From: Salinirubellus salinus | GTDB lineage: Archaea > Halobacteriota > Halobacteria > Halobacteriales > Haloarculaceae | Direction of reading: 5' to 3' | DNA length: 64,000 bases | Assembly: GCF_025231485.1 (NCBI RefSeq) | Contig: NZ_CP104003.1 | Location: 2,666,001 to 2,730,000 of the forward strand | Part shown: positions 21,322-61,442 of the stretch, in pieces | How positions within the stretch are numbered: the first letter of the stretch is position 1 | Layout: every line of letters starts with the position of its first letter | Made by a program: the position numbers and the translations under genes | The notes under the pieces: generated by a model | Database searches by the model: none | What the model saw: only the letters and a program-made list of their open reading frames with translations | Told to the model about the DNA's origin: nothing

Positions 21322-21328
21322 GCGGCGT

Positions 21329-39044: not shown

Positions 39045-40706
39045 TCAGTCGTCCGTCTCCGCGGCCGCCTCCAGCCCGACCAGCGCTCGCGCCCGGTCGA
39101 CGAAGGTGCGGGCCAGTCGCTCGCCGACGCCGGCTGCCGCCGCGACGGTCGGGGCGTCCGCCACGGCGAGGTCCGCGACGGACTCGATACCCGCGTCCCG
39201 GAGTCGCGCCGCGTAGGTCGGTCCGACGCCCTCCAGTTCCTCGAGGTCGTACACCGAGGCGACCGCGACCGACTCGACCGACTCCTCGACCTCCGTCCGG
39301 GTGGCCTCGCCCACGCTCCGGACGACCGTCGTCTGGACGCCCTCGTCCGTCGCGACCGTGACGGCGATGCCGTCCGCGTCGCCGGACAGTTCGATGTCGA
39401 CGCCGAGCGCCGCCTCGAGGAACCGCTCGACGGCCACCGGGTCCCGCCGGACGACCGCTCTGGATATCTCGCCGTCGGCGTCTCCCACGCCGACCGCCAT
39501 CTCGTCGACGTCGCCGACGCCCACGTCGGTCTCGACGTCGACGCCGAGCGCCGCCTCTACCCCCTCGCCGAGCACGTCGGCGAGCGTCGGGTGGTCGGAC
39601 TGCTCGAGGAACCACTCGGCGACCTCCGGCCAGACGTCGCGGTGCGCCCCGTTCGACATCGCGAGGCCGACGTGGCCGCTCGGGTACTCGATGGTCGTCA
39701 CGTCGTCGGTGCCGACGACCTCGTTGAACGGGGTGCTGGCGTCGGGCGGTACGAGGCTGTCGTAGGTGCCGACGATCTGGAGGAGCGGCACGTCGATCCG
39801 CTCGACGTCGACGGGCTCGCCCCCGACGGTCAGTTCGTTCCGGTAGAGCTCGTTGCGCTGGTAGATGCGCTCGACGAACTCGGCGTACGCCTCGCCAGCG
39901 AGGTCGACCGGGTCCGAGAGCCAGCGCTCCATCCGCGCGAAGTTCCGCACGAAGTCCTCGTTCTCCAGCCGCTCGGCGAGCCGGACGTACTTCGTGACGG
40001 TGTTCGCGACGGGGTCCATGAGCTGGAACCCGGCCGCGAGGAACTCGCCGGGGACGTTCCCGTGCACCTCGCGCAGCCGACGGGGGTCGAAGTACGCCTC
40101 GTCGCCCCACAGTTCGAGGACGCCGCCGGTGTCCTCGAGGTACAGCGGGGCGGCCAGCAACGCGAGCGCGTTCACCTTCTCGGGGTGGAGGGCGGTGTAG
40201 ATGGCCGACATCGTGCCGCCCATGCAGTAGCCGAGGAGGTTGATGGCCGCCTGCCCGGAGCGCTCGCGGACCACGTCGACGCAGTTGTCGAGGTAGCGCC
40301 CGACGTAGTCCTCCAGCCCGAGGTGTCGGTCGAGCCGCGAGGGGTCGCCCCAGTCGACGAGGTAGACGTCGTGGCCGGCCTCGAGCAGCCGGCGGACGAT
40401 GGACCGGTCGGGCTGGAGGTCGAGGATGTACGGCCGGTTGATGAGGGCGTAGACGACGAGGACGGGGACGGCGTGCTGGTGGTCGGTGAGCGACTCGTAG
40501 CGACGTAGTTCGAGCTTGTTCTCGGTGTAGACGACCTCGCTCGGGGTCTGTCCGACCTCGACGGTGGTGGCGTCGGCGAGTCGGCCGGGGAGGAGCGTCG
40601 CCTCGCGTGCCGCCTCCGTGGCCGTCTCGAGGGCCGCCCGCTGGAACGTGCGCACCAGCGCGAGGGGAGACGCGGCGGGCGGGGACGGGGACTCCTCAGC
40701 GGGCAT
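39045..40706 (-). CDS. phaC: Class III-type PHA synthase PhaC with C-terminal helix-hairpin-helix extension
   Basis: 553 residues. Residues ~1-360 are a PhaC alpha/beta hydrolase-type synthase: YILDLQPDRSIVRRLLEAGHDVYLVDWGDP, lipase-like box LLGYCMGGTMSA (nucleophile Cys), IVGTYDSLVPPDAS (Asp) and YPSGHVGLAMS (His). Residues ~365-495 are an acidic, low-complexity region, and ~495-550 a helix-hairpin-helix module (LEELEGVGPTYAARLRDAGIESVADL...AGVGERLARTFVDRA). Haloarchaeal class III synthases normally need PhaE, usually encoded beside phaC; no phaE is visible here. It converges on the thiolase/DUF35 pair. Confidence 0.9.
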   Translation of the reverse strand: MPAEESPSPPAASPLALVRTFQRAALETATEAAREATLLPGRLADATTVEVGQTPSEVVYTENKLELRRYESLTDHQHAVPVLVVYALINRPYILDLQPDRSIVRRLLEAGHDVYLVDWGDPSRLDRHLGLEDYVGRYLDNCVDVVRERSGQAAINLLGYCMGGTMSAIYTALHPEKVNALALLAAPLYLEDTGGVLELWGDEAYFDPRRLREVHGNVPGEFLAAGFQLMDPVANTVTKYVRLAERLENEDFVRNFARMERWLSDPVDLAGEAYAEFVERIYQRNELYRNELTVGGEPVDVERIDVPLLQIVGTYDSLVPPDASTPFNEVVGTDDVTTIEYPSGHVGLAMSNGAHRDVWPEVAEWFLEQSDHPTLADVLGEGVEAALGVDVETDVGVGDVDEMAVGVGDADGEISRAVVRRDPVAVERFLEAALGVDIELSGDADGIAVTVATDEGVQTTVVRSVGEATRTEVEESVESVAVASVYDLEELEGVGPTYAARLRDAGIESVADLAVADAPTVAAAAGVGERLARTFVDRARALVGLEAAAETDD

Positions 40707-46903: not shown

Positions 46904-47078
46904 ACGACTCGTCGTCGCTTCTTCGACGCCGCACCGCTGGGTGACGGCGCTCGTCGTCGTGGGCACCCCCCGTCAGGAGACCGTGGCGGGAGACGGGTCC
47001 CACCACGCGACCCCGGTCGGGCCCACGGTGCGAGGCGCCCCAGTGTTTATGCCGAGTGCTGGCACACCGGACGGGTAC

Positions 47079-48044
47079 ATGAAGCTCGCCAGTTTCGCGG
47101 TCGAGACACCCACCGGCCGACAGCGACGGGTCGGTGTGAAGGTCGACGACGGACTCGTGGACGTGACGAGCGCGTACGCGGCCCGTCTCGCGGCCGAGGG
47201 CGTCGCGGCGGCCGACGAACTCGCCCGAGCGACCGCCCCACCCGAGATGGTCGCGTTCCTCGAACGAGGTGACCGCGCACTCGAGGCCGCCCGCGAGGCC
47301 CGCGAGTACGCACTGTCGACCGACGAGCACCACCACGCCGACGGTGGGCGACTCGTCTTCGCCCTCGACGAGGTCGACCTCCTCAGCCCGGTCCCCCGCC
47401 CCACGTCGCTCCGGGACTGCATGGTGTTCGAGGAGCACGTGCAGAACAGCCTCGGCGAGGAGATCCCGGACGTCTGGTACGAGCGGCCCATCTACTACAA
47501 GGGGAACCCCGGCTCCGTGGTCGGCCCCGGCGACGAGGTGGCGTGGCCGGCCTACAGCGAGACGGTCGACTACGAACTGGAGGTCGCCGCCGTCGTCGGC
47601 AAGGAGGGCCGGGACATCCCGGTCGAGGCGGCCGACGAGTACATCGTGGGCTACACGGTCTTCGACGACTTCAGCGCCCGCGACACCCAGATGGCCGAGA
47701 TGCAGGGCCGTCTCGGGCCGGCGAAGGGGAAGGACTTCGCGAACGCGCTCGGGCCGTACCTGACGACGGCCGACGCCATCGACATCGGCGAGGCGGGGAT
47801 GACCGCGACGGTCGACGGCGAGGTCTGGTCGGAGGGGACGCCCGGCCACATGGAGCACAGTTTCGCCGACATCGTCGCGTACATCTCGCAGTCGGAGACG
47901 CTCTATCCGGGCGACGTCATCGGGAGTGGGACCGTCGGCGAGGGCTGTGGCCTGGAACTCGGGCAGTTCCCCGAGTTCGGCGACACCGTCGCGCTGACCG
48001 TCGAGGGCATCGGGACGCTGGAGAACCGCATCGCGCCGCGGTGA
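47079..48044 (+). CDS. Fumarylacetoacetate hydrolase (FAH) family protein
   Basis: 321 residues. An ~80-residue N-terminal domain is followed by the FAH catalytic fold: SLRDCMVFEEHVQNS, KGNPGSVVGPGDEVAWP, VDYELEVAAVVGKEGRDIP (metal-binding E-x-E), IVGYTVFDDFSARDTQ, AKGKDFANALGPYLTT and YPGDVIGSGTVGEGCGLELG. Family members are acylpyruvases, 2-hydroxyhepta-dienoate isomerases and oxaloacetate decarboxylases; the exact reaction is open. I start at the ATG giving MKLASFAV; an ATG 30 bases upstream overlaps a TATA-like GTTTATG, so is less likely. Confidence 0.86.
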   Translation: MKLASFAVETPTGRQRRVGVKVDDGLVDVTSAYAARLAAEGVAAADELARATAPPEMVAFLERGDRALEAAREAREYALSTDEHHHADGGRLVFALDEVDLLSPVPRPTSLRDCMVFEEHVQNSLGEEIPDVWYERPIYYKGNPGSVVGPGDEVAWPAYSETVDYELEVAAVVGKEGRDIPVEAADEYIVGYTVFDDFSARDTQMAEMQGRLGPAKGKDFANALGPYLTTADAIDIGEAGMTATVDGEVWSEGTPGHMEHSFADIVAYISQSETLYPGDVIGSGTVGEGCGLELGQFPEFGDTVALTVEGIGTLENRIAPR

Positions 48045-49344: not shown

Positions 49345-49464
49345 CTACCGCCAGTCGTTCAGGACGACTGCCGCGGGACCGGGACAGGTGCCGACCCCGA
49401 GGGCGGAGTAGAGCCCGCAGGTGCCGGTCGGCCCGGTCACGAGCGCGATGACGGCCACGAGGCC
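49345..49464 (-). pseudogene. Truncated remnant of a DUF2892 (YgaP-like) membrane protein gene
   Basis: On the minus strand this encodes GLVAVIALVTGPTGTCG, then LYSALGVGTCPG and a divergent tail ending at TAG (49345-49347). The intact DUF2892 gene at 61221-61442 encodes GIVAVVALVTGLSGTCG and LYSVLGVSTCPAER at its end. Over 82 bases (49383-49464 vs 61235-61316) the DNA agrees at about 73 positions. The N-terminal two thirds are missing, and the reading frame abuts the stop of the ABC permease gene. It is therefore a gene fossil, not a functional gene. Confidence 0.75.
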
Positions 49465-49479
49465 ACGGGGTGGGGCGAC

Positions 49480-50154
49480 TCAGGCGCCGGCCGCCGACGC
49501 GTTCTGGAGCCCCTCGCCACCGAGCCGACGCTCGACGAGCGCGAACAGCGAGTCCATCCCGATGGCGAGCAGCGCGCCGGGGATGGCGCCCGCGAGCACC
49601 TGCGGCATGTTGAACAGTTTGATGCCGACGACCACCCAGAGGCCGAGCCCGCCGCCGCCGATGAAGAAGGCGAGGTAGGCCGTCCCGACGGTGATGACCG
49701 AGGCGGTCCGGATGCCCGCGAAGATGACGGGGAGCGCGAGCGGGAGCTGTATCTGCTTGAGTATCTCCCAGTCGGTCATCCCCATGCCACGGGCGGCCTC
49801 GACGGTGGACGCGTCGACGTCCTCGATGCCCGCGATGGTGTTGGTGAGGATGGGGAGGATGGCGTAGGTGAACAGGCCGACCAGCGCCGTCGTGAACCCG
49901 ATACCGAGGACGGGGAACACGAGGAAGATGATGGCGATGGTGGGCACCGACTGTGCGACGTTGCCAGTCCCGAGGATGTAGCCCTTCAGTCTAGGTCGCC
50001 GGGTCGCGAGGATACCGGCGGGGACGGCCACGAGGATGGCACAGACCACCGCGACGACCACGAGCTGGAGGTGCGTGGTGAGCAGTTCGACGAACTCCGT
50101 CTGGTTCTCGAGGAGGTAGCGCCACGCCGCCGGGAGCTGTTCGACGAGCCCCAT
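49480..50154 (-). CDS. QAT-family ABC transporter permease (OpuB/OpuC-like), second
   Basis: 224 residues, about six helices: ELLTTHLQLVVVAVVCAILVAVPAGILATR, then GNVAQSVPTIAIIFLVFPVLG. The ATPase-contacting loop is VDASTVEAARGMGMTDWEILKQIQLPLALPVIFAGIRTASVITVGTAYLAFFIGGGGLG (EAA motif). It pairs with the permease at 51156-51920 in an importer for betaine-, choline- or carnitine-like compounds. It abuts the ATPase gene with no gap. Confidence 0.88.
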   Translation of the reverse strand: MGLVEQLPAAWRYLLENQTEFVELLTTHLQLVVVAVVCAILVAVPAGILATRRPRLKGYILGTGNVAQSVPTIAIIFLVFPVLGIGFTTALVGLFTYAILPILTNTIAGIEDVDASTVEAARGMGMTDWEILKQIQLPLALPVIFAGIRTASVITVGTAYLAFFIGGGGLGLWVVVGIKLFNMPQVLAGAIPGALLAIGMDSLFALVERRLGGEGLQNASAAGA

Positions 50155-51159
50155 CTACGGTCCCCCGTCTCGACTGCCGCGGATGGCGGCCTCGGTCACG
50201 ACACCGACCACCTCGTCGTCGCGGGTGACCGGGAGCGCGTCGACACCGCCCTGGATGAGCCGTGAGAGCGCGACCTGCGTGCTGTCGGTCGGCTCCACCG
50301 GGACGACGTCGCCAGCCTCGCCGACGACGTGCTCCGCGTGCCCGTTGCCCTCGACGGTGGCGACCACCTCGCCGTGCTCCTCGGTGGGCTCCTCCATGAC
50401 CTCGCGGACCGGCGTCACCTGGAGCTGTTTCAGCGTCCGGTCGGCGCCGATGAAGTCCTCCACGAACTCGTTCTTGGGGTTCGCCAGTATCTCGTCGGGC
50501 GTGTCGTACTGGACGACCTCGCCGACGTCGAAGATGGCGATGCGGTCGCCCATCTTCAGCGCCTCGTCGATGGAGTGCGTGACGAACAGGATGGTGGTGT
50601 TGATCTCCGCCTGGATGTCGAGGAACTCCTGCTGGAGGTTCTCTCGGGTGATGGGGTCGAGCGCCCCGAACGGCTCGTCCATCAGCATCACGTCCGGGTC
50701 GGCTGCGAGCGCCCGGGCGACGCCGACGCGCTGGCGCTGACCACCCGACAGTTCGGTGGGATACTGGTCGCGGTACTGCTCTGGCGGGAGGTCCATCAGC
50801 TCGAGGAGTTCGTCGACGCGCTCCTCGATGCGCCCCTCGTCCCAGCCCTTGAGGTCAGGGACCGTCGCGATGTTCTCGCCGACGGTCATGTGGTCGAACA
50901 GGCCGATCTCCTGGATGACGTAGCCGACCTGCCGGCGGAGGTCTATCTCGTCGAGCTCGGAGATGTCGGTCCCGCCGAAGTAGACCGTCCCCTCGGTCGG
51001 GTCCTCGAGGCGGTTGACGAGCTTCATCGTCGTCGTCTTGCCACACCCCGAAGGGCCGACGAGGACGGTCGTCGTGCCCTCCTCGACGGTGAAACTGATC
51101 TCCTCGATGGCCACGGTACCGTCCGGATACTCCTTGGTTACGTTCTCGAACTCTATCAT
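50155..51159 (-). CDS. QAT-family ABC transporter ATP-binding protein with CBS tail
   Basis: 334 residues. The N-terminal ATPase has Walker A GPSGCGKTTTM, Q-loop VIQEIGLFDHMTV, signature LSGGQRQRVGVARALA, Walker B VMLMDEPFGALDP and the switch His in VTHSIDEALKMGD. The C-terminal ~75 residues carry one CBS-like unit (EPTDSTQVALSRLIQGGVDALPVTRDDEVVGVVTEAAIRG), as in osmotically gated OpuA/OpuC ATPases. It overlaps the upstream permease gene by 4 bases, so it is translationally coupled. Confidence 0.92.
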   Translation of the reverse strand: MIEFENVTKEYPDGTVAIEEISFTVEEGTTTVLVGPSGCGKTTTMKLVNRLEDPTEGTVYFGGTDISELDEIDLRRQVGYVIQEIGLFDHMTVGENIATVPDLKGWDEGRIEERVDELLELMDLPPEQYRDQYPTELSGGQRQRVGVARALAADPDVMLMDEPFGALDPITRENLQQEFLDIQAEINTTILFVTHSIDEALKMGDRIAIFDVGEVVQYDTPDEILANPKNEFVEDFIGADRTLKQLQVTPVREVMEEPTEEHGEVVATVEGNGHAEHVVGEAGDVVPVEPTDSTQVALSRLIQGGVDALPVTRDDEVVGVVTEAAIRGSRDGGP

Positions 51160-51920
51160 GCCGTCTCACCCGCACTCGTGCCTGTGTCCGGGGCCGTGTC
51201 GGTGCCGGTGACGGCACCCCGGACCAGCCGCGGTAGCTCGACGTCCTCGCCGTTGCGCAGCCTGAGGACGCGCTCGATCAGCCCGAAGCCGTAGTCGACG
51301 GACAGCGTCAGCAGCGACAGCACCACCGTCCCGACCACGAGCTCCTCGATGTCCGGCTCGGAGACGCCGTTGAAGATGAGGTCACCGAGGCCGCCGGCCC
51401 CGATGAACGCGCCGATGGCCGCGATGCCGATGAGCACGACCACGGCGTTACGGACCCCAGCCATGATGACCGGGAGCGCCATCGGGAGTTTCACCCGACG
51501 GAGCCGTTCGAACCGGGTCATACCGAGTCCCGTGCCGGCCTCAACGGCCGCCTGGTCGACGCGGTCCAGCCCCACGTACGTGTTGCGGATGACCGGCAGC
51601 TGCGAGTAGAGCACCAGCGCGACGACGACCGGCGGCTGGCCGATACCGAACGCGGGGATGAGCAGGCCGAACAGCGCGATGCTCGGCACGGTCATCATCA
51701 CGCCAGCGAGCCAGAGTACGACCGTCGCCGCCCGGTCGTTGTACGTGATGAGCGTCCCGACCACGACCCCGAGCGGCACCGCGATGGCGATGGCCTGGGC
51801 GATGATGGCGACGTGCTGGAGCGTGAGTCGGACGAGACTGTCGGCGTTCGAGGTGAGGTACTCGACGTAGCTACCGACGAACAGGGGGCCGCTCACGACA
51901 GACGAGGCGAGAGGGGACAT
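51156..51920 (-). CDS. QAT-family ABC transporter permease, first
   Basis: 254 residues, six helices. Characteristic segments: LTLQHVAIIAQAIAIAVPLGVVVG, GVMMTVPSIALFGLLIPAFG, the EAA loop VDQAAVEAGTGLGMTRFERLRRVKLPMALPVIMAGVRNAVVVLIGIAAIGAFIGAGGLGDLI, and a longer C-terminal tail. It lies between the binding-protein gene (7-base gap) and the ATPase (4-base overlap), completing an SBP-permease-ATPase-permease operon. Confidence 0.89.
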   Translation of the reverse strand: MSPLASSVVSGPLFVGSYVEYLTSNADSLVRLTLQHVAIIAQAIAIAVPLGVVVGTLITYNDRAATVVLWLAGVMMTVPSIALFGLLIPAFGIGQPPVVVALVLYSQLPVIRNTYVGLDRVDQAAVEAGTGLGMTRFERLRRVKLPMALPVIMAGVRNAVVVLIGIAAIGAFIGAGGLGDLIFNGVSEPDIEELVVGTVVLSLLTLSVDYGFGLIERVLRLRNGEDVELPRLVRGAVTGTDTAPDTGTSAGETA

Positions 51921-51927
51921 CGGGAGC

Positions 51928-52878
51928 TCAGATCAGGCCTTCGTTCGACAGGAACTCACGAGCGGTCTTCTGTGGGTCGCCACCGTCGATTGACACCTGC
52001 TTGTTCAGGCTCCGGATCTTCTCGGTCGAGAGCGTCGGGCCGATGGCGTTCAGCGGCTCCTCGATGCTGGGTGCGGACTCCAGCGCGTCCTGGTTCACGA
52101 GCGGCGCCGGGTTGTAGACCGGGAAGAACTGCTCGTCGTCTTCGAGCACGGTGAGGTCGAACCTGACGATCTTCGGGTTCGTGTTGAAGCCGACCCCGAC
52201 CTGCGCGTCCCCCTGGCCGACCGTCTGGTAGGTTAGCCCCGAGTCGACGTTCGTCACCTGGATGTCCGACAGGGCGCCGTCGAAGCCGTAGTGCTTCGCG
52301 ACGCCGGGCCACCCGTCGGCCCGGTTCTCGAACTCGGCGTTCAGCACGACGGTGAAGTCGGTGTTGCCTCCGTTCACGTACTCGGCGAACCCGGAGAGCG
52401 TCTCGACGCCGGTCTGTTCCACCCAGTCTGGGTTCGCCGTCAGCACGTACGTGTTGTTGAACGGTGCCCGCTGCAGGAAGTCGAGGCTGTGCTCGCTCTG
52501 GACCTCCTCGTCGACCTTCTGGTAGATCTGCTGCGGGTCCGTGATGACCTCGTCGTGTTTCGGCGGGAGCGTCGCCCACGCGGTCCCCGTGTACTCCCAG
52601 TAGAGGTCGATCTCGTCGCTCTTGACCGCCCGGAAGTTCGTGGTCGTCCCGCCCAGTCCGACCTCGTTCACGACCTCGACGTCGGCGTTGGCGTCGAGCG
52701 CCTCGTAGGCCATGTGGCCGAGCAGTTCCTGCTCGGTGAACTGCTTGGAGCCGACCTTGACCGCGGTCCCCCCGCCCCCGAGGAAGCTCGAACAGCCGGC
52801 CAGCGAGGTGAGGCCGACTGCACCACCCGCAACGGCCCCCCGTTTCAGTACCTGTCGTCGCGTGTGCTTCACTGTCAT
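51928..52878 (-). CDS. QAT-family substrate-binding lipoprotein (OpuC/OsmF-like)
   Basis: 316 residues. The signal RRQVLKRGAVAGGAVGLTSLAGC has a Tat-type motif and a lipobox Cys. The mature domain is OpuAC-like: VKVGSKQFTEQELLGHMAYEAL, VNEVGLGGTTTNFRAVKSDEIDLYWEYTGTAW (the EYTGT hallmark), LQRAPFNNTYVLTANPDW, and VDSGLTYQTVGQGDAQVGVGFNTNPKI. The ligand should be a quaternary or otherwise compact amine such as betaine or choline, but the neighbouring catabolic genes make a nutrient role as likely as osmoprotection. First gene of its operon. Confidence 0.9.
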   Translation of the reverse strand: MTVKHTRRQVLKRGAVAGGAVGLTSLAGCSSFLGGGGTAVKVGSKQFTEQELLGHMAYEALDANADVEVVNEVGLGGTTTNFRAVKSDEIDLYWEYTGTAWATLPPKHDEVITDPQQIYQKVDEEVQSEHSLDFLQRAPFNNTYVLTANPDWVEQTGVETLSGFAEYVNGGNTDFTVVLNAEFENRADGWPGVAKHYGFDGALSDIQVTNVDSGLTYQTVGQGDAQVGVGFNTNPKIVRFDLTVLEDDEQFFPVYNPAPLVNQDALESAPSIEEPLNAIGPTLSTEKIRSLNKQVSIDGGDPQKTAREFLSNEGLI

Positions 52879-52913
52879 AGTCTACCGGGAGTGTCGGAGC
52901 AATCGGGGTAACG

Positions 52914-52925
52914 GTTCGCGCGAAC
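52914..52925. promoter_or_regulatory. 12-bp palindrome in the leader/promoter of the QAT ABC operon
   Basis: GTTCGCGCGAAC, a perfect palindrome, lies between a TATA-like ATCATAAAAGC (minus strand, near 52937-52947) and the start codon at 52878, about where transcription should begin. This is a repressor-type position. The neighbouring HTH-10 protein or a distant TrmB/PadR-type regulator could bind here. Observation direct, function inferred. Confidence 0.42.
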
Positions 52926-52964
52926 TATTGTGAGCTTTTATGATACTCGTCGTGAGACGGTGAC

Positions 52965-53411
52965 TCAAAGTGCGTTCGACGGCACGACGACCACTGGCAC
53001 GCGCGCCTCGATGACGACCTCCTGGAGCGTGCTGCCGAAGAGTGCCTTCCCGGCCGGGCTCCGCTTGCGGCTGTACATGTAGAGCCGGTCGGCGTCGACG
53101 GACTCCACGGCGTCGACGATGGCCTCGGCCGGTTCGCCCTCGTGTTCGATGCCACGGACCTCGGTGTCGATGTCGGCGTCGTCGAGTCGCCGGAGGGCCG
53201 CGCCGACGCCGGACTTGCGGCTGGCCAGTTCGTCCACGTCCGCACGCCCCTCGATGTCGAGGTTCTCGCTGGTCGAGGTCACCTCGTCCGCGTCGAAGAC
53301 GTGGCTGACGACCACCGTGAGGTCCTCGTCGGCCTCGGTGTCGACGACGACGTCGGCGACGCTCTCGGCCCACTTCGAGTGGTTACTCGCCGGGAGGAGT
53401 ACCCTGCTCAT
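52965..53411 (-). CDS. Universal stress protein-like protein
   Basis: 148 residues with the Usp fold outline: SRVLLPASNHSKWAESVADVVVDTEADEDLTVVVSHVFD at the start and DADRLYMYSRKRSPAGKALFGSTLQEVVIEARVPVVVVPS at the end. This second stretch corresponds to the ATP-loop but has lost the Gly-rich pattern, so it may not bind ATP. It lies between the HTH-10 regulator and the ABC operon on the same strand, an arrangement that suggests a role in sensing or modulating the importer, as for stand-alone Usp proteins near osmolyte transporters. Confidence 0.78.
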   Translation of the reverse strand: MSRVLLPASNHSKWAESVADVVVDTEADEDLTVVVSHVFDADEVTSTSENLDIEGRADVDELASRKSGVGAALRRLDDADIDTEVRGIEHEGEPAEAIVDAVESVDADRLYMYSRKRSPAGKALFGSTLQEVVIEARVPVVVVPSNAL

Positions 53412-53468
53412 ACTGGCGGTATCACCGGGAACGGCTTCACTCGCCCGCCGAACATATCGCGGCGTTTA

Positions 53469-54176
53469 TCAGGCACCATTCTCGGTGGCGAGGTTGATGT
53501 AAGGGAGGAGGAACTCGAAGAGCTGTCGCTCGGCCTTCCGGAGGTGGGTCGAGGCGGTGGTCTTCGTGATCCCCATCTCCTCGGCAAGTTCCTCGAGGGT
53601 GGTCTCACGCGGGATCTCGAAGTAGCCCGCCTCGAGCGCGAGGTTGAGCAGTTCGCGGCGCCGAGGGGGGAACGAAGCGAGGAGTGCCTGCCAGCCGGCC
53701 CGCGACGGGACGACCTCGCGGCGGAACTCCTCGCTGATGCGGTCGACGCCGACGCTCCCGAACTGCTCGAGCAGTTCGATTGCGTTCGACAGCTCCTCGC
53801 GGTCGTGCAACAGGAGGTCGAAACACTCCCGCCCGTTCTCGAGTTTCGTCGGGCCGATGGGGAGGAACCCCTCGTACAGCAGTGTCTGCAGGGGCGTGAA
53901 CTCCGTCAACTGTCCCTCGATGAACAGCGTCATCGAACTCCGGTTGCGCTCGTCGGCGTCGAACTCCTCGACGACCTCCACCGCGTCGATCATGCGGTGG
54001 TCTCCGATGATGTCGAGCACGGTCGCCGTGTCGTCCGCGTCGCACTCGACGGCCATGATGCCGACGTACCGACGGTCGCGGAAGGTGGAGGCGATGAACT
54101 CGCCGAACACGTCGTGGGCCGCCAGCTGGGCCGTCCAGTCGCCCTCGTACCGGACGCACACCTTGGCGGTCAGCAT
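53469..54176 (-). CDS. HTH-10 (Bat-type) transcriptional regulator
   Basis: 235 residues. The C-terminal HTH-10 domain (residues ~165-225: WQALLASFPPRRRELLNLALEAGYFEIPRETTLEELAEEMGITKTTASTHLRKAERQLFEFLLPY) is the bacterio-opsin-activator type found almost only in haloarchaea. The N-terminal ~150 residues contain ACT-like/GAF-like alternation of strands and helices and may bind a ligand; they start MLTAKVCVRYEGDWTAQLAAHDVFGEF. It is set between the ABC operon and the catabolic genes, so is the probable local regulator. A 6-5-6 inverted repeat just upstream suggests autoregulation. Confidence 0.86.
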   Translation of the reverse strand: MLTAKVCVRYEGDWTAQLAAHDVFGEFIASTFRDRRYVGIMAVECDADDTATVLDIIGDHRMIDAVEVVEEFDADERNRSSMTLFIEGQLTEFTPLQTLLYEGFLPIGPTKLENGRECFDLLLHDREELSNAIELLEQFGSVGVDRISEEFRREVVPSRAGWQALLASFPPRRRELLNLALEAGYFEIPRETTLEELAEEMGITKTTASTHLRKAERQLFEFLLPYINLATENGA

Positions 54177-54177
54177 A

Positions 54178-54194
54178 GGTCTCCTGGAGAGACC
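54178..54194 (-). promoter_or_regulatory. Inverted repeat at the HTH-10 gene start
   Basis: GGTCTC-CTGGA-GAGACC (6-bp arms, 5-base spacer) lies immediately upstream of the ATG at 54176, between it and the TATA-like ATACTTATCC (minus strand, about 54203-54212). Its position at the expected transcription start fits an operator, possibly for the HTH-10 protein itself. Confidence 0.4.
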
Positions 54195-54213
54195 TTCTCG
54201 GGTGGGATAAGTA

Positions 54214-55527
54214 TCACGCCTCTATCGACCACGGCGCGAGGAGCGCCTCGACCGGGCGGTCCGGCGTCCGGAGCGTCTCCCGGACCGACTCGAGGGCCCG
54301 CGCATCGAGTGTCGGCGTCAGGAGTCCGCGGGCCTTCTCGACCCGTTCGCGTTCGGACAGCGGCTGTTCGCGGGCGCCCGGTGACCGCGTCACGGCCGAC
54401 CGGTAGGTGTCGGTCGGCGTCTCGACGGTGACGCGGGCGAGACACTCAGTGGGGAACCGCTCGTCGAGCGACGGCTCGGCGACGAGAGCCACGCGGTCCG
54501 CCAGCGCCAGCACGTCTGGCGCCTCGCGTGCCGTCTCGTCGAGGTCGGCCGGCGTGAACCGCCCGCGAGCGAGCGCCACCGCGACCGGGTACGGATAGGA
54601 GTACTCGGCGGCCTCCGCGGAGTCCGGGTGCCGGGTGCCGAGGTGGGTCGCCTCCTCGAACGTCTCGACGAGGACGCGCTCGACGGCGTCGGGGTCGAGG
54701 TCAGCCCGGTCGCGCAGTGCGAGCACCGCGGCGACGCCGGGCTGTGCCCACCGACAGCAGGGGTAGGGTTTCAGGTACCCCTCGGTGACGTGGTAGCGCG
54801 ACCCCAGCGAGTCGGCGTGGTCGACGTCCGACGCGTCGAAGACGGTGCCGGAGCCCGTGAACCCACGTTCGGCCAGCAGCGCGGCCGAGACGCCGGCGTA
54901 CGACCCCCAACCGATGCCGTCTTTCGTCATCCCCGGTCGCTCGACGCCGCGCATGATGGGCGTCCGCGGCGCGTGGTACTCGGCGGTCCCGAGCGCCTGC
55001 GCGAGCGTCGCGTGGTCGAGCCCCCGGAGCCGACCGACGGCTGCGGCCGCACCGAGCGCTCCCCACGAGCCGGTGCCGGTGTAGACGCCGTCGGTGGCGT
55101 GGATGGCGAGCCCGGCCCGCACGCCGAGTTCGTAGCCGACGAGGACGCCGTCGAGGAACTCGCCGACCGTCGCGTCGGCGGCCTCGGCGGCCGCGAGGGC
55201 GGCGGGGACGACGACGGCCGCGGGGTGGCCCTTCACCTCTCGGTTGCCGTCGTCGACGTCGAGGGCGTTGGCGGCGGTGGCGTTCACCAGCGTCGCGGCC
55301 TCCAGCGAGAGACGGCTCCCCGTGCCGTCGAGGAGGGTCGCCTCGGCGACGTCGGCGAACCGGTCGGTCGCGTACGTCCGGACGACGTCGGCGGTCGGGA
55401 GCCGGTACCCGGCAGTCGTCGCCGCCAGCGTGTCGAGGACGCGCGCCCGGAGGTGTGCACCGACCTCGGTGGGCGCGTCCGACCGACTCGCGGTGCGGGC
55501 GAACGCGACGGCGTCGTCTGTCGTCAC
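54214..55527 (-). CDS. MmgE/PrpD family protein
   Basis: 437 residues of the 2-methylcitrate dehydratase/cis-aconitate decarboxylase fold. Helical domain: VRTYATDRFADVAEATLLDGTGSRLSLEAATLVNATAANALDVDD, where the DD pair is typical. Then HPAAVVVPAALAAAE, GYELGVRAGLA, GSWGALGAAAAVGRLRGL, the GWGSYAGVSAALLAERGFTG region and YLKPYPCCRWAQPGVAAVLAL. The family dehydrates or isomerises small polycarboxylates, and members occur in many catabolic operons with other substrates. Followed after 6 bases by the amidohydrolase (which lies upstream in transcription), so the genes form one operon. Confidence 0.88.
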   Translation of the reverse strand: MTTDDAVAFARTASRSDAPTEVGAHLRARVLDTLAATTAGYRLPTADVVRTYATDRFADVAEATLLDGTGSRLSLEAATLVNATAANALDVDDGNREVKGHPAAVVVPAALAAAEAADATVGEFLDGVLVGYELGVRAGLAIHATDGVYTGTGSWGALGAAAAVGRLRGLDHATLAQALGTAEYHAPRTPIMRGVERPGMTKDGIGWGSYAGVSAALLAERGFTGSGTVFDASDVDHADSLGSRYHVTEGYLKPYPCCRWAQPGVAAVLALRDRADLDPDAVERVLVETFEEATHLGTRHPDSAEAAEYSYPYPVAVALARGRFTPADLDETAREAPDVLALADRVALVAEPSLDERFPTECLARVTVETPTDTYRSAVTRSPGAREQPLSERERVEKARGLLTPTLDARALESVRETLRTPDRPVEALLAPWSIEA

Positions 55528-55533
55528 GCGTGC

Positions 55534-56358
55534 TCAGTCGTCGTCCGCGGCGGCGGCCTCCTGGGCTCCCCAGTTCTGCTTGTCGACGTCGAGGCCGTAG
55601 AGTTCGACGGCGTTCTCGCCGAGGATCTTCGCCTTCTGCTCCTCGGTCGCTCCGATACAGTCGATCTTCGTGAGCGCGACTGGGATGTTCGTCGAGTGCT
55701 CGGCGGCCATAAGCAGGCGGTCGGCACCGACGGCCTCCATCGCCCGACGGACGTACATGTTCAGCGCCAGCGTCGTGTCGAGGTAGATGTTGTCGTAGCG
55801 CTCGGCCATGAAGATGGCCTCCTGCGTGAGCGTGTACGCCCCACCCATGTGCGCGAAGATGATGGGCAGGTCGGGGTAATCCTCGGCGACCGGCATGAAC
55901 ATCCCGGGGACCGAGAACGGCATCCCGTGCGGGCCGGTGTGGACCATCACGGGGACGTCGTTCTCGGCACAGGCGTCGTAGACGTCGTAGGCGATGTCCG
56001 AGGTCGGGTCGACACCCCACGCCAGCGTGTGTAGTTTGACGAACTTGAAGTCGAGCTCCTGGACACACCGGGTGATCTCCTCGTGGACGAACTCTGTCCC
56101 GAGGTGCGGGTTGACCGCCGCGGTGCCGAAGATGCGGCCCTCGTAGGCCTGCGAGGCCTCGTAGATGTGGTCGTGGACCTCGGTGACCGAGCGGTCGTTC
56201 TCGCCACCCAGCGGCTGGAGGATGGTCGCGTCGACCTCGTTCTCGTCCATCGCGTCGATTATCTGGGCGATACTCTCGGACCACTCGAACGTGCGGTCCT
56301 GGTCGGCGTTCGGGTTGCCGATGTGGTGGTGACCGTTGACGACGGGGTACTCTGCCAT
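55534..56358 (-). CDS. Amidohydrolase-2 family protein (ACMSD-like)
   Basis: 274 residues, a TIM-barrel metal hydrolase/decarboxylase. Metal ligands are in VVNGHHHIGNP (HxH), FKFVKLHTLAWG, PVMVHTGPHG and PIIFAHMGGAYT (His residues). The last strand, normally GSD with the catalytic Asp, reads LLMAAEHSTNIP, where Glu-His replaces Asp; the chemistry may therefore differ from standard amidohydrolases. Start at 56358 (MAEYPVVNGHHHIG) rather than an ATG 30 bases upstream. In a polycistronic unit with MmgE/PrpD and the DUF6282 gene. Confidence 0.85.
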   Translation of the reverse strand: MAEYPVVNGHHHIGNPNADQDRTFEWSESIAQIIDAMDENEVDATILQPLGGENDRSVTEVHDHIYEASQAYEGRIFGTAAVNPHLGTEFVHEEITRCVQELDFKFVKLHTLAWGVDPTSDIAYDVYDACAENDVPVMVHTGPHGMPFSVPGMFMPVAEDYPDLPIIFAHMGGAYTLTQEAIFMAERYDNIYLDTTLALNMYVRRAMEAVGADRLLMAAEHSTNIPVALTKIDCIGATEEQKAKILGENAVELYGLDVDKQNWGAQEAAAADDD

Positions 56359-56438
56359 TGCAGGACGGCCTACCGCGAAATACCGCATCAGGGTTCGCGG
56401 CTACATGTCCGAGCCTTCAAGTGCGGGTCGGCGTTCGG

Positions 56439-57344
56439 CTACAGCCCCAGCAGGTCGACCGGCGTCTCGGCGACGAGCTTTCGGACCGTCTCGCGCTCTA
56501 ACCCGGCGTCGACGAGCGCGCTGGCGAACGACGCGAGCCCCTCGACCGGTGGGTTCGACGCCTGACCGAAGTCCGTCGCGAGGAGACACCGGTCGGCGCC
56601 GATGCGCTCGACGGCGCGGGCCACGCGCTCGACGGTGTGGCCCTCGGTGCTCTGGACGGCGTAGCCACAGAACTCCATCACCGCACCCCGGTCGGCGAGC
56701 GCGGCCTGCTGCTCGACAGAGAGGTCGAGCACGCGGAAGAACGGGTGGTTGACGAGACACCGGGCGCCCGCGTCGGCGCAGGCGTCGACGACCGTCTCGA
56801 TGGCCGCGGGCGCGACGTGCCCGGTCCCGAGGACGGCGTCGTGCTCGGCGACGAGGTCGAGTACCCGGCGGGTCGCCGCCGTCAGTTCGCCGTCCTCGGT
56901 GACGTGGAGGTCCTCCTCGGCGTCGGGGACACGCTGGCCGACGAACCGCTCGACGCCCGCGGCACGGGCCTGACTCGCGTGGTTGTGGCTCCACGCGGTC
57001 GGGAGCCAGACGACCGTCGCGCCGAGATCGAGCGCCACCTCGGCGGCGTCCGGGTTGACGCCACCGACGCTCCCGTTGAGCGCCACGCCACCGTGGAGGA
57101 CGCGCTCGCCGACCGCCTCGTTCGCCAGCTCCACCCGGCCCGCGGTGGGGACGACGTGGCTCTTGACGACCGCACCGCGCAGCCCGGCCTCCCGGACGCG
57201 GTGGGCGAGCGCGACGTCGTGCTGGAACCGCTCGACGAGGTCGGGGGCGGTGTGGACGTGGACGTCGAGCGCCCCCTCGACGAGACCGTAGTCGGGGTCG
57301 GCCTCGTCGATGGCGGTCCCGGTCCCGCTCCCAGTATCGCTCAC
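56439..57344 (-). CDS. DUF6282-like metal-dependent hydrolase
   Basis: 301 residues, PHP/amidohydrolase-like. It starts with a flexible acidic leader then GALDVHVHTAPDLVERF (HxH metal site), VVKSHVVPTAGRVEL, NGSVGGVNPDAAEVALDLGATVVWLPTAWS, GTGHVAPAAIETVVDACADAGARCLVNHPFF, and CLLATDFGQASNPPVEGL (Asp ligand position). The family is annotated only as DUF6282, commonly in catabolic clusters; activity unknown. Its ATG overlaps the FAD/Fe-S gene stop by 4 bases. Confidence 0.82.
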   Translation of the reverse strand: MSDTGSGTGTAIDEADPDYGLVEGALDVHVHTAPDLVERFQHDVALAHRVREAGLRGAVVKSHVVPTAGRVELANEAVGERVLHGGVALNGSVGGVNPDAAEVALDLGATVVWLPTAWSHNHASQARAAGVERFVGQRVPDAEEDLHVTEDGELTAATRRVLDLVAEHDAVLGTGHVAPAAIETVVDACADAGARCLVNHPFFRVLDLSVEQQAALADRGAVMEFCGYAVQSTEGHTVERVARAVERIGADRCLLATDFGQASNPPVEGLASFASALVDAGLERETVRKLVAETPVDLLGL

Positions 57345-60202
57345 ACGACCACCTCAGCGAGCAGCTCCATCGGGTGGTGGGTCTCGACGTCACGGTCGGC
57401 GAGTTGCTGGCTGCAGGAGGCACCGCTCGCGGCCACGAGGTCGGCCTCGGTCGCGTCGAGCTGCTGCTCCAGTTCCGCCCCGAGCGTCGTCGAGAGGTCG
57501 TAGTGCTCGGTCTCGTAGCCGAACGCGCCCGCCATCCCGCAGCAGGTCGCGTCGACGGGCCGGACCTCGTAGCCGGCCCGCCGGAGCAGCGCGACCGGGT
57601 CGGCGTCCCATCCCTTCGTCGAGGCGTGGCAGTGGCCGTGGAAGGCGACGGTCACGTCGCCGGCCTCGGGGAGCTCGACCTCGCCGGCCTCGACGCGGTC
57701 ACGGAGGAACGACGCCACCGTTCGACTGACCTCGGGGAGCCCGCCCGTCTCCTCGAGCAGGTCGTCGTACTCCACGAGCGCGCTGACGCAGGACGGCTCG
57801 ACGCCGACGACGGGGACGCCACGGTCGGCGTACTCGCCCAGGATCTCGACGTTGGTCTCGGCGAAGCCACGGGCCCGCTCGACCAGTCCCTGCGAGAGCG
57901 CGGCGCGCCCGCAGCACTCGACCTCGGGCACCTCGACAGCGTAGCCCAGCGCCTCCAGCAGACGGACCGTCGCCCGGCCCACCTCGGGGTGGTTGTACGC
58001 GGTGTAGCAGTCAGGGAACAGGGCGACGGTGCCGCGCTCGCCGGCCGCCGGCGCCGGGTCGTGGCCTGCGACCCACTCGAGGAACGACTCGCTCGCGAAC
58101 GACGGAAGCGTCCGCCGGCGGTCGATACCGAGCGTCTTCTCCGCGATGACGCGCCCGGGACCGAACGCGGCGAGTCGGTTCGCGACCGGCGCGAGCGCGC
58201 TCCCCACGCGGTTGAGGAGGCGGACGTTGCCGAACAGCCGGGCACGGAGCGGTACCCCGTCGGCCTGGTGTTTCTGGTGTTTCGCCTCCGTCTTCAGCTT
58301 CGCCATGTCCACCCCGGTCGGGCACTCCGTCTCACAGGCCTTGCACGCGAGACAGCGGTCGAGGACGGCCTCCTGGAACTCGTCGCTCGTCAGCGCGTCC
58401 GCGCCGAGGTCGCCGTCGATGGCCGCCCGGAGCATGTTCGCCCGCCCCCGCGTGCTCGTCACCTCCTCGCCGGTCGCCCGGTAGGAGGGACACATCACGC
58501 CGCCCTCGGTGGTCCGGCACTTCGAGCAGCCGTTGCACTGCTCGACGAGCGAGTCGAACCCGCCCTCGTCGCCGAAGTCGAGCGCCGTGTCGACCGTCTC
58601 GGGGTCGTACCCCGCGTACCGGAGGTGCTCGTCGACGGCCACGAGTTCGCCGTCGGAGGACGGGACCACCTTCGCGGGGTTGAACACGTCCTCGGGGTCG
58701 AATGCCCGCTTCAGGTCGACGAACGCGCCGTAGAGCTCCTCACCGTACATCTCGGGGAGGTACGCCGAGCGGAGGCGTCCGTCGCCGTGCTCGCCGGAGA
58801 CACAGCCGCCGACGTCCAGCACGATGTCGTGGACGGCCTCGGAGACCGACCGGAGGCGCTCGCGGTCACGCTCGGTCTGCAGGTCGAGGAACGGCTTGAC
58901 GTGGAGGACGCCCTGCCCGGCGTGACCGAACACGCTCGCTTCGAGGTCGTGCTCGCGAAGGACGTCGCCGACGCACTCGAGGTACGCGGCGAGTCGCTCG
59001 GGCGGGATGGCGGCGTCCTCGACGAACGAGAGCGCTTGCTCGTCGCCCATGCGCCGGTTCAGGAGCGGGTTCGACGCCTTGCGGATCTTCCAGAGCCGGT
59101 CCTGCGTCGCGTCGTCGGTAGCTCGCTCGACGGCGACGGTGGCCTCGGTCCGGGCCGCCTCGACCGCCCGGTCGAGGTCGGTCTCCTGGTCGGCGTGGGT
59201 GGTCTCGACCTCGACCAGCAACGCGGCGCCCGCCATCTCGGGGACGAGGTCGAACCCCCAGGCGTCGCGGGCGTAGCCGAGGACGGCGTCGTCGATGAGT
59301 TCGACCACACTCGGGTCGGCGGCCAACGACCCGGCGACGGCGTCGGCCGCGGCGACGACGTCGTCGTAGAACAGGAGCGCCGCGGCGCGTGTCTCCGGGC
59401 GCTCTGTGAGTTCGAGCGTCACCTCGGTGACGACGCCGAGCGTGCCCTCGCTCCCGACGACGAGACGCGAGAGGTCGAGCCACGAGCCGTCCGGGGCGGC
59501 GCTGCTCTCGAGGTCGTAGCCGCTCGAGTTCCGCTCCACATCCGGGTACCGGGTCTCGATGGCCTCGGCGTGCTCGACCGCGAGGTCGGCCACCGTCCGG
59601 TGGACCTCGCCGACCCGGTCGTCGCGGTCGAGGACAGCGTCGAGGTCGTCGGCCTCGCGTCGGCCGAACTCGGCGACGCTCCCGTCCGCCAGCACGCACT
59701 CGACCCGCCGGACGTTGTCGCGGGTCGTCCCGTGGCGGACCGAGTGTGGGCCGGCGGCGTCGTTCGCCACCATCCCCCCGATGGTGCAGGTGCTGGACGT
59801 CGACGGGTCCGGCGGGAAGTAGAGGCCGTTGGCCTCGAGTTCGGCGTTCAGGTCGTCGAGGACCACGCCGGGCTGGACGGTGACCGTCTTTGCGTCCGGG
59901 TCAAGCTCGACAACCTCGTCGAGGTGGCGCTCGCAGTCCAGCACGATGCCCTCGCCGACGGCGTTGCCGGTGAGCGATGACCCCGCTCCGCGTGCCGTGA
60001 TGGCGGTGTCGTGCTCGCGGGCGAACTCGACGACTGCCCGGACGTCCGCTCGACTCCGCGGGAAGGTGACGCCGCTCGGCTCCACCTCGTAGATGCTCGC
60101 GTCGGTCGCGTAGAGCCGCCGTGCCGACTCGCCGAAGTCGACCTCACCTTCGAGTCGTGCCGCGAGCCCGGGTGCGCCCCCGCTCGCGTCGTCGGTACTC
60201 AT
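57341..60202 (-). CDS. FAD- and Fe-S-binding oxidoreductase (GlcD-GlpC/D-lactate dehydrogenase-like fusion)
   Basis: 953 residues. N-terminal FAD-binding-4 domain (ITARGAGSSLTGNAVGEGIVLD...GVVLDDLNAEL, PPDPSTSSTCTIGGMVANDAAG) and FAD-oxidase C domain to ~residue 490. Two 4Fe-4S clusters: CNGCSKCRTTEGGVMCPS near 557 and CLACKACETECPTG near 620. Two CCG (cysteine-rich) domains: LFPDCYTAYNHPEV to VECCGRAALS, near 762, and FHGHCHASTKGWD to CCGMAGAFGYE, near 887. Such fusions oxidise 2-hydroxy acids (lactate, glycolate, 2-hydroxyglutarate) and pass electrons to quinone. First gene of the catabolic operon. Confidence 0.9.
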   Translation of the reverse strand: MSTDDASGGAPGLAARLEGEVDFGESARRLYATDASIYEVEPSGVTFPRSRADVRAVVEFAREHDTAITARGAGSSLTGNAVGEGIVLDCERHLDEVVELDPDAKTVTVQPGVVLDDLNAELEANGLYFPPDPSTSSTCTIGGMVANDAAGPHSVRHGTTRDNVRRVECVLADGSVAEFGRREADDLDAVLDRDDRVGEVHRTVADLAVEHAEAIETRYPDVERNSSGYDLESSAAPDGSWLDLSRLVVGSEGTLGVVTEVTLELTERPETRAAALLFYDDVVAAADAVAGSLAADPSVVELIDDAVLGYARDAWGFDLVPEMAGAALLVEVETTHADQETDLDRAVEAARTEATVAVERATDDATQDRLWKIRKASNPLLNRRMGDEQALSFVEDAAIPPERLAAYLECVGDVLREHDLEASVFGHAGQGVLHVKPFLDLQTERDRERLRSVSEAVHDIVLDVGGCVSGEHGDGRLRSAYLPEMYGEELYGAFVDLKRAFDPEDVFNPAKVVPSSDGELVAVDEHLRYAGYDPETVDTALDFGDEGGFDSLVEQCNGCSKCRTTEGGVMCPSYRATGEEVTSTRGRANMLRAAIDGDLGADALTSDEFQEAVLDRCLACKACETECPTGVDMAKLKTEAKHQKHQADGVPLRARLFGNVRLLNRVGSALAPVANRLAAFGPGRVIAEKTLGIDRRRTLPSFASESFLEWVAGHDPAPAAGERGTVALFPDCYTAYNHPEVGRATVRLLEALGYAVEVPEVECCGRAALSQGLVERARGFAETNVEILGEYADRGVPVVGVEPSCVSALVEYDDLLEETGGLPEVSRTVASFLRDRVEAGEVELPEAGDVTVAFHGHCHASTKGWDADPVALLRRAGYEVRPVDATCCGMAGAFGYETEHYDLSTTLGAELEQQLDATEADLVAASGASCSQQLADRDVETHHPMELLAEVVV

Positions 60203-60372
60203 GACGCGAAGGCACTCGCCGGGCGGGGTTACGGCTTCAGGTGAACATGTGCCGGGGTTCATTAGCCCGCGCCCGACTTGTAAACGCTGGACATGTGTCG
60301 CCGAACGGCCTTGGCCGGCGCCCGCCACGTCCGGGTCGAGATGGCCGACCGAGACGCCACAGGGGGGGAACC

Positions 60373-61161
60373 GTGACCGACACGCCGGCGACGCGCGTCG
60401 CGACCTGCCAGTTCGAGCCGGTCGTGGACGACGTCGACGCCAACTACGAGCGAATCGACGCCCTGACCGAGCGGGCGGACGCCGACCTCGCGGTGTTCCC
60501 CGAGCTGTGCGTGACGGGCTACGACCTCGAGACCGCCCGAGACCGGGCGACTGGGGTCCCCGGCGACCTGACAGACCCGCTCGTCGACACGGCGGCGCGG
60601 ACCGACACGGAGCTCGTCGTCGGCCTCCCTGAGCGCGACGGCGAGGCGCTCTACAACGCGTTCGTGCTCGTCGACGGAGACGGCGTGCAGGCGACCTACC
60701 GGAAGTGCTACCCATGGGGTGCGGAGTCGGACGTGTTCGAGACCGGCGACGGACCGGTCGTCGCGGAGACGAGCGCTGGCCGCCTCGGGTTCCTCCTCTG
60801 TTACGACCTCAACTTCCCCGAGGCCGCGCTCGAGTACAGCCACCGCGAGTGCGACGTGCTGGCGGTGGGAGCCGCGTGGCGCACCTCGTTCCGGGCGGAC
60901 TGGCGACTGCTCGCTCGGGCACGGGCGCTCGACGGGCCGTGCTACGTCGTCGGCTCGAACCACGTAGGCGACCAGCGTGGCCGCGACCACGGCGGCGGGA
61001 GTCTCGTGGCCGGGCCACGAGGGGAGATGCTGGCCGAGGCCGGCGAGTCACCGGGCGTCGAGGTCGCGACGGTCGACGGGGAAGCACTCGGGACCGCACG
61101 CGACCTGAACCCGGTCCGGGAGACGCGGGCGGAACTGAGCGGTGGCTCACACGGTGAGTGA
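60373..61161 (+). CDS. Carbon-nitrogen hydrolase (nitrilase superfamily)
   Basis: 262 residues with the catalytic triad: Glu in AVFPELCVTGYD (~42), Lys in TYRKCYPWGAESDVF (~109) and Cys in GFLLCYDLNFPEA (~142). Length and spacing match the amidase branch. It may hydrolyse an amide or N-carbamoyl compound released in the pathway. GTG start VTDTPATRVATCQFEP, with a preceding purine-rich GGGGGGAACC. It is divergent from the FAD/Fe-S oxidoreductase, whose start is 170 bases away, so a shared control region is likely. Confidence 0.87.
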   Translation: MTDTPATRVATCQFEPVVDDVDANYERIDALTERADADLAVFPELCVTGYDLETARDRATGVPGDLTDPLVDTAARTDTELVVGLPERDGEALYNAFVLVDGDGVQATYRKCYPWGAESDVFETGDGPVVAETSAGRLGFLLCYDLNFPEAALEYSHRECDVLAVGAAWRTSFRADWRLLARARALDGPCYVVGSNHVGDQRGRDHGGGSLVAGPRGEMLAEAGESPGVEVATVDGEALGTARDLNPVRETRAELSGGSHGE

Positions 61162-61220
61162 GTAAGGGAGTGTCGTCGACGGTCGGTCGGGTGCCCGTGT
61201 CCGCGTCCGGTCCGCGGACG

Positions 61221-61442
61221 CTACCGCTCGGCCGGGCAGGTGCTGACCCCGAGGACGGAGTAGAGCCCGCAGGTCCCGCTCAGTCCGGTCACGAGCGCGA
61301 CGACGGCCACGATGCCGAGGACGGGTGACGCGATGGCCGGGAGGCCGACCTGCCCGCCGAGAGTGGCGAGCGAGAGGAGGCCGGCGAGGGCGCCGACGAC
61401 GATGCGGACGTTCTGGTCGAGCGAACCGACGTTTCGTTCCAT
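61221..61442 (-). CDS. DUF2892 (YgaP-like) small membrane protein
   Basis: 73 residues: MERNVGSLDQNVRIVVGALAG opens with the DUF2892 pattern (RNVG..DR/QxxR), followed by two membrane helices (LLSLATLGGQVGLPAIA and SPVLGIVAVVALVTGLSG) and CGLYSVLGVSTC with paired cysteines. The ATG at 61442 fits the family N-terminus. It is an intact copy of the gene whose remnant lies at 49345-49464 in the same orientation. It converges on the nitrilase gene. Confidence 0.85.
   Translation of the reverse strand: MERNVGSLDQNVRIVVGALAGLLSLATLGGQVGLPAIASPVLGIVAVVALVTGLSGTCGLYSVLGVSTCPAER

Follow-up and report, generated by a model that had tools for sequence, protein, structure and literature searches.

Haloarchaea are known to exchange blocks of transport and metabolic genes, and the nearest described systems to the locus reported here are the transporter islands, or homeocassettes, of Halorubrum ezzemoulense, which combine importers with metabolic genes at a host-like G+C content, have no integrases, are patchily distributed and are proposed to spread among haloarchaea by homologous recombination (PMC11078007). 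A second precedent is the deletion-coupled insertions of Haloquadratum walsbyi, in which foreign blocks are taken up precisely with no mobile-element genes (PMC3119063). Here we describe an eleven-gene cassette of 11.7 kb (49480-61161) in a 64,000-nt stretch of the archaeon Salinirubellus salinus (contig NZ_CP104003.1, positions 2,666,001 to 2,730,000; hereafter the window, whose numbering is used wherever no other locus is named). The cassette is exchanged horizontally among haloarchaea and is maintained as a unit in different families; in this genome it lies directly against a DUF2892 gene. It encodes a complete ATP-binding cassette (ABC) importer together with metabolic enzymes, occurs patchily, is similar to its host in G+C content and has no integrase, which makes the H. 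ezzemoulense islands its nearest described kind. We regard the cassette as a new example of such islands, one that has an informative scar and whose pathway is unassigned. The H. ezzemoulense islands were delimited by fixed core genes in a single species, whereas the cassette crosses families, is plasmid-borne in several hosts and shows gene-fragment scars at its edges in the window and in Natronorubrum thiooxidans. The H. walsbyi insertions share the precise uptake of a foreign block but were distinguished from islands that give rise to direct repeats, and in the window the 3' end of a gene is found on both sides. The locus thus illustrates clearly how a complete operon for uptake and catabolism has passed from one family of halophilic archaea to another with no visible mobility genes.

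The evidence for transfer comes from the nearest relative of the cassette, which resides on a plasmid of Halobaculum magnesiiphilum and aligns with the window from 49484 to 61016 in a single alignment of 11.5 kb at 81% DNA identity. Between these two genomes the Amidohydrolase_2 proteins are 93% identical and the importer permeases 91% and 90%, and the RpoB' proteins are 84% identical, the lowest value among the twelve genomes compared and lower than that of Amidohydrolase_2. A tree of seven cassette proteins joined the window and H. magnesiiphilum with support of 100/99. The RpoB' tree placed the window with its own family (99/98) and rejected a clade of the window and H. magnesiiphilum (approximately unbiased test, p-AU 0.007). 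Because RpoB' rejects the host grouping that the cassette tree supports, the cassette has moved horizontally, as one unit, between distantly related haloarchaea. In H. magnesiiphilum the cassette (locus L171, 4662-16256) has 65% G+C within plasmid flanks of 57% and is foreign there; the simplest interpretation is that a GC-rich donor supplied it to the Halobaculum plasmid.

An identical order of all eleven genes was found in Halobellus sp. Atlit-31R, H. magnesiiphilum, Halorussus salinisoli, Halorussus ruber, N. thiooxidans and a further genome (G423). The same skeleton with the MmgE/PrpD gene missing or broken was present in Halomicrococcus gelatinilyticus, Natronorubrum bangense and two other genomes (G203 and G443), and since this gene is absent or broken in these four of the eleven cassettes examined, it seems to be dispensable or in the course of being lost. 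Three of the cassettes are carried on plasmids, in H. magnesiiphilum (487 kb), H. gelatinilyticus (413 kb) and N. bangense (828 kb). With the Amidohydrolase_2 gene used as a marker at the level of orthologues, only the S. salinus genome itself was positive among 146 genomes of its family, and 9 of 392 genomes sampled from the order were positive, its own included, in four families. Such patchiness among relatives is characteristic of haloarchaeal transporter/catabolic islands. It also supports the view that the S. salinus lineage received the cassette and did not merely retain it, a view based on the absence of the cassette from the family and not on composition. The first-pass annotation had proposed a self-contained island, and this proposal stands: relatives do not always carry these genes in the same place, 145 of the 146 family genomes having no orthologue of the marker, and the block moves between haloarchaeal families with its eleven-gene order conserved. 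A second haloarchaeal version, found among others in Halogranum, Natronococcus and Haladaptatus plasmids, keeps the importer, the C-N hydrolase and MmgE, and in most cases the HTH_10 regulator. In Halogranum (L027, 7442-11302), a different Amidohydrolase_2 gene and a Rieske ferredoxin gene lie between those for the C-N hydrolase and MmgE.

Each edge of the eleven-gene block carries one piece of a DUF2892 gene, and the two pieces share the same orientation. On the right lies an intact gene (61221-61442, minus strand), 59 nt from the terminal stop codon on the C-N hydrolase side of the cassette, that encodes a complete protein of 73 amino acids (PF11127, formerly DUF2892; E 6e-18) with homologues in the family of at most 74% identity. 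The left piece (49345-49464, minus strand; homologous part 49382-49464) is a 3' fragment that retains only the C-terminal third. It begins, without a start, 15 nt past the stop codon of the importer permease and is then open until a stop at 49345. A pair of about 89% identity had been noted in the first-pass annotation, and an unbiased repeat search of the window recovered it independently as a direct repeat of 83 nt (49382-49464 and 61234-61316; 74/83 bases, 89%), which extends to 103 nt at 86% in a gapped alignment (E 5e-31). This similarity exceeds chance, as 143 random 2-kb segment pairs from the region gave a best match of E 7e-12, compared with 3e-29 for the edges. Six of the nine differences between the copies fall at codon positions 1 or 2, and the left fragment has accordingly been decaying. 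Apart from the right copy, a PF11127 search of the genome recognized only one other whole DUF2892 gene, 0.84 Mb away. The best of 19 family homologues matches the fragment at only 61 of 81 bases, compared with 74/83 for the right copy, and a family-wide DNA search, conducted genome by genome, yielded no longer match to DUF2892 above 74% over 80 bases. The edge copies are therefore closely related to each other, which sets them apart from independent representatives of a common gene family.

The positions of these pieces coincide with the limits of the cassette. Homology to other species stops at 49484 or 49474 on the left, and on the right at 61016 (H. magnesiiphilum) or 61131 (Halobellus); the shared sequence thus ends at the 3' end of the permease gene and inside the C-N hydrolase gene. 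Beyond these limits, the fragment follows after 10-20 nt on the left and the intact gene after about 90-200 nt on the right, so the cassette lies exactly between them. A corresponding arrangement was detected in N. thiooxidans, where the cassette is bounded by 304-bp direct repeats of 97% identity (L177, 5060-5363 and 17440-17743) that correspond to the 3'-terminal part of tnpB (OrfB_IS605, Cas12f1-like_TNB). There the whole tnpB is on the C-N hydrolase side and the 3' fragment on the permease side, which is the geometry of the window with DUF2892. No DUF2892 gene was found in the flanks of the compared cassettes other than the window's own. These edge scars suggest how transporter islands may enter chromosomes.

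The gene content of the cassette, derived from gene calls and Pfam/NCBIfam profile matches, is as listed in the first-pass annotation, with two refinements: the second metal hydrolase is a DUF6282 protein (56439-57344), and the oxidoreductase starts near 60202. Ten of the genes are on the minus strand. They begin at the left end with importer permease 1 (BPD_transp_1, 49480-50154; PF00528, 1e-25), in which the homology to H. magnesiiphilum starts at 49484, followed by a ProV/OpuA-type ATPase with a CBS domain (50155-51159; PF00005, PF00571), permease 2 (51156-51920; PF00528, 3e-24) and an OpuAC substrate-binding protein (51928-52878; PF04069, 1e-53). Next are a universal stress protein (Usp, 52965-53411; PF00582) and a Bat-like HTH_10 regulator (53469-54176; PF04967, 9e-19). 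The enzymes comprise an MmgE/PrpD family member (54214-55527; PF03972 and PF19305), whose nearest solved structures are IRG1 and IDS-epimerase, an Amidohydrolase_2 protein with a fold like that of decarboxylases and hydratases (55534-56358; PF04909), the DUF6282 metal-dependent hydrolase-like protein (PF19799, 4e-56), which matches amidohydrolase, dipeptidase and TatD TIM-barrel folds, and a flavin adenine dinucleotide (FAD)/iron-sulfur (Fe-S) 2-hydroxyacid dehydrogenase (57341-60202; PF02913, PF01565, PF02754, PF13183), a YdiJ-like fusion of GlcD and GlcF. The right end is formed by a divergent, plus-strand C-N hydrolase of the nitrilase superfamily (60373-61161; PF00795, 7e-44).

None of the enzymes of the cassette reaches a curated cut-off for a named activity. 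The MmgE/PrpD protein scores 26.9 bits against 950 for the PrpD (2-methylcitrate dehydratase) equivalog and is a member of the superfamily only; the FAD/Fe-S enzyme scores 547 against 1350 bits for YdiJ (D-2-hydroxyglutarate dehydrogenase), short of that cut-off; and the C-N hydrolase, at 99 against 500 bits for the archaeal nitrilase equivalog, belongs to the C-N hydrolase superfamily only. The best Foldseek matches of the Amidohydrolase_2 model are 5-carboxyvanillate and dihydroxybenzoate decarboxylases and LigJ, with ACMSD also near, so that by predicted fold it is similar to metal-dependent decarboxylases and to the LigJ hydratase. The AlphaFold models of the two amidohydrolase-fold proteins are of moderate confidence, with predicted local distance difference test (pLDDT) scores of 73 and 68, sufficient to assign a superfamily and not a reaction.

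The binding protein of the importer groups with OsmF, ProX, choline-sensor and EgtUC proteins, and five aromatic positions (F47, Y96, Y144, F231 and Y255) are invariant in 23 cassette-linked sequences, bacterial ones included. In relatives of solved structure, these positions enclose quaternary ammonium groups. The importer shares with the OpuA/ProU/OsmU type (ProX, OpuBC, EgtUC) the subunit set, the OpuAC domain, the CBS domain of the ATPase and the conserved aromatic ligand box. It differs in that its ATPase narrowly misses the curated proV cut-off (323.1 vs 326.6 bits), so that it works like proV and is not a curated member, in that the binding protein is far below the OsmF cut-off, and in being linked to catabolic enzymes and not to osmoprotection. 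In addition, related clusters with an MmgE/PrpD gene and an OpuAC importer adjoin MttB-family methyltransferase genes in Desulfosporosinus, Symbiobacterium and Desulfacinum (L042, L044, L048). The Desulfosporosinus cluster (L042) also contains a B12-binding protein, and a C-N hydrolase or glutamine-amidotransferase-like gene is present in the Desulfosporosinus and Symbiobacterium clusters, as a C-N hydrolase fusion in L042. MttB family members act on methylated amines and occur in quaternary-amine demethylation clusters of anaerobes (e.g. PMC8604678, PMC6855144). The haloarchaeal cassette differs from these in having no MttB or corrinoid protein and instead encoding the FAD/Fe-S dehydrogenase, DUF6282 and Amidohydrolase_2.

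Based on the OpuAC relatives, the invariant aromatic positions and the MttB genes beside the bacterial clusters, a betaine-like quaternary amine is the likeliest solute to be imported. The C-N hydrolase implies an amide step and the YdiJ/GlcD-like enzyme implies the oxidation of a 2-hydroxyacid. A possible, if doubtful, alternative is that the substrate is no quaternary amine and is, for example, an aromatic or heterocyclic acid amide handled by a nitrilase-type amidase, a decarboxylase like ACMSD or LigW, the MmgE/PrpD protein and the 2-hydroxyacid dehydrogenase. The Amidohydrolase_2 fold, nearest to the carboxyvanillate, dihydroxybenzoate and ACMSD decarboxylases and the LigJ hydratase, fits such a substrate, as does the Rieske ferredoxin of the second haloarchaeal version; the betaine/choline type of importer with its invariant aromatic box, and the presence of MttB in the bacterial relatives, argue instead for the quaternary amine. 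Ergothioneine degradation, suggested by the similarity to EgtUC, was considered and set aside, as no matching gene set was found in the literature. Literature searches likewise found no matching paper on homarine or trigonelline degradation and none on DUF6282. No described pathway with this gene set was found in the literature, in agreement with the earlier remark that the combination is not a recognized one.

Taken together, we consider it reasonably probable that the locus is a mobile transporter/catabolic cassette that entered by recombination at the 3' end of DUF2892 and serves a putative substrate, most probably an amide-bearing quaternary amine. Under this explanation, a circle or fragment, for example, would have carried the cassette along with a short DUF2892 3' tail, and a single crossover at the 3' end of the resident DUF2892 gene would have integrated the circle. 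The product would be a whole gene, the cassette and a 3' tail in that order, which is the arrangement found here. The insertion is probably old and by now fixed. The OpuAC importer would capture the betaine-like quaternary-amine solute, the C-N hydrolase would strip the amide nitrogen, and the FAD/Fe-S 2-hydroxyacid dehydrogenase, the amidohydrolase-fold enzymes and MmgE/PrpD would convert the carbon skeleton into central metabolites, with expression presumably governed by the HTH_10 protein. The first-pass annotation had suggested that the segment could also excise. This looks unlikely today, given how short the repeats are, their 11% divergence and a longest identical run of 19 bp.

Several observations weigh against this explanation. 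Direct repeats were found at the edges of only one of the nine other cassettes whose 2-kb flanks were searched. The G+C content at third codon positions (GC3) is 0.918 in the cassette and 0.917 in its surroundings, so a foreign composition in this genome is ruled out and the arrival is undated by composition. The putative insertion point is placed from the edges alone: the DUF2892 homologues closest in relatives share no neighbors with the window edges, none of the relatives' DUF2892 genes lies beside AIM24 or beside the DsbD homologue in the convergent arrangement of the window, and the AIM24, DsbD and DUF2892 neighborhoods of relatives reveal no shared order beyond a single gene and no readable empty site. 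AIM24 itself was found in other genera (77% identity at best) amid unrelated genes, the local gene order being scrambled between genera. With respect to the substrate, the bacterial relatives that provide the MttB link are distant (41-43% identity for MmgE and 33-39% for the binding protein), and the haloarchaeal cassette contains no methyltransferase.

Some of these observations would also fit a cassette that is old in the lineage, where DUF2892 already existed as a tandem pair and a later deletion beside the importer operon truncated one of the two genes, leaving a remnant unrelated to the arrival. The host-like GC3, the 11% divergence of the repeats and the finding that the relatives examined have 1-5 DUF2892 genes per genome, which relocate freely, are all in keeping with such a history. 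We nevertheless regard it as rather unlikely, as the pieces abut both ends of the cassette, 15 and 59 nt from terminal stop codons, exactly where cross-species homology stops, and as a chance placement of this kind is very improbable by a rough count, given three DUF2892 loci in 4.1 Mb. Entry of a site-specific integrative element at the 3' end of DUF2892, with restoration of the gene, displacement of the old 3' end and later loss of the integrase, matches the geometry of a whole gene and a 3' fragment in the same orientation, here and with tnpB in N. thiooxidans, but is very improbable, since there is no integrase or tRNA at the edges, the edge repeats are not identical and the flanking genes differ in every species compared, so that no common attachment site exists. 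Indeed, Pfam/NCBIfam annotation identified no integrase, transposase or insertion sequence among the genes at the window edges of the cassette, and the sole tRNA found is at 21328; the integrase and tRNA attachment site of integrase-type islands are thus lacking, as are the bounding insertion sequences of composite elements in this genome.

Entry by recombination at DUF2892 can be extended to a more general proposal, which we put forward as a long shot: that an undescribed pathway for an amide-bearing quaternary amine resides on a mobile cassette that spreads as a circle with a short 3' tail of a neighboring gene. Recombination would then insert it at the 3' end of the copy already resident in the new host, which would be DUF2892 here and tnpB in N. 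thiooxidans, and would leave the whole gene, the cassette and the 3' tail in a row. Regardless of the route of entry, the conserved combination of DUF6282, Amidohydrolase_2, MmgE/PrpD, FAD/Fe-S dehydrogenase, amidase and OpuAC importer indicates an unassigned pathway of nutrient use, one that could be tested in a genetically tractable haloarchaeon.

Additional features were observed around the cassettes. In three species, the edge of the cassette has an iron-containing alcohol dehydrogenase gene beside it or close by (L193, 17855-19000; L174, 16601-17719; L178, 17916-19046). The G443 cassette (L178) is flanked by two betaine-aldehyde-dehydrogenase-like genes, and an apparent inverted repeat around it proved to be these two aldehyde dehydrogenase genes; a gene with a DDE-transposase match just below the Pfam cut-off also adjoins this cassette. 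Genes for tnpB and orc1/cdc6 are found near the plasmid cassette of H. magnesiiphilum. In the window, a catabolic-looking gene of the fumarylacetoacetate-hydrolase family lies just beyond the left edge (46941-48044). It has no homologue beside the cassettes that were compared with the window's own genes, and a different gene of this family is situated about 6 kb from the N. bangense cassette. A promoter and terminator scan yielded nothing useful, its models being bacterial and the host archaeal. Finally, at 39045-40655 the window encodes an alpha/beta hydrolase that resembles PhaC and carries a fused helix-hairpin-helix domain at its C terminus (Pfam PhaC_N and HHH_5).

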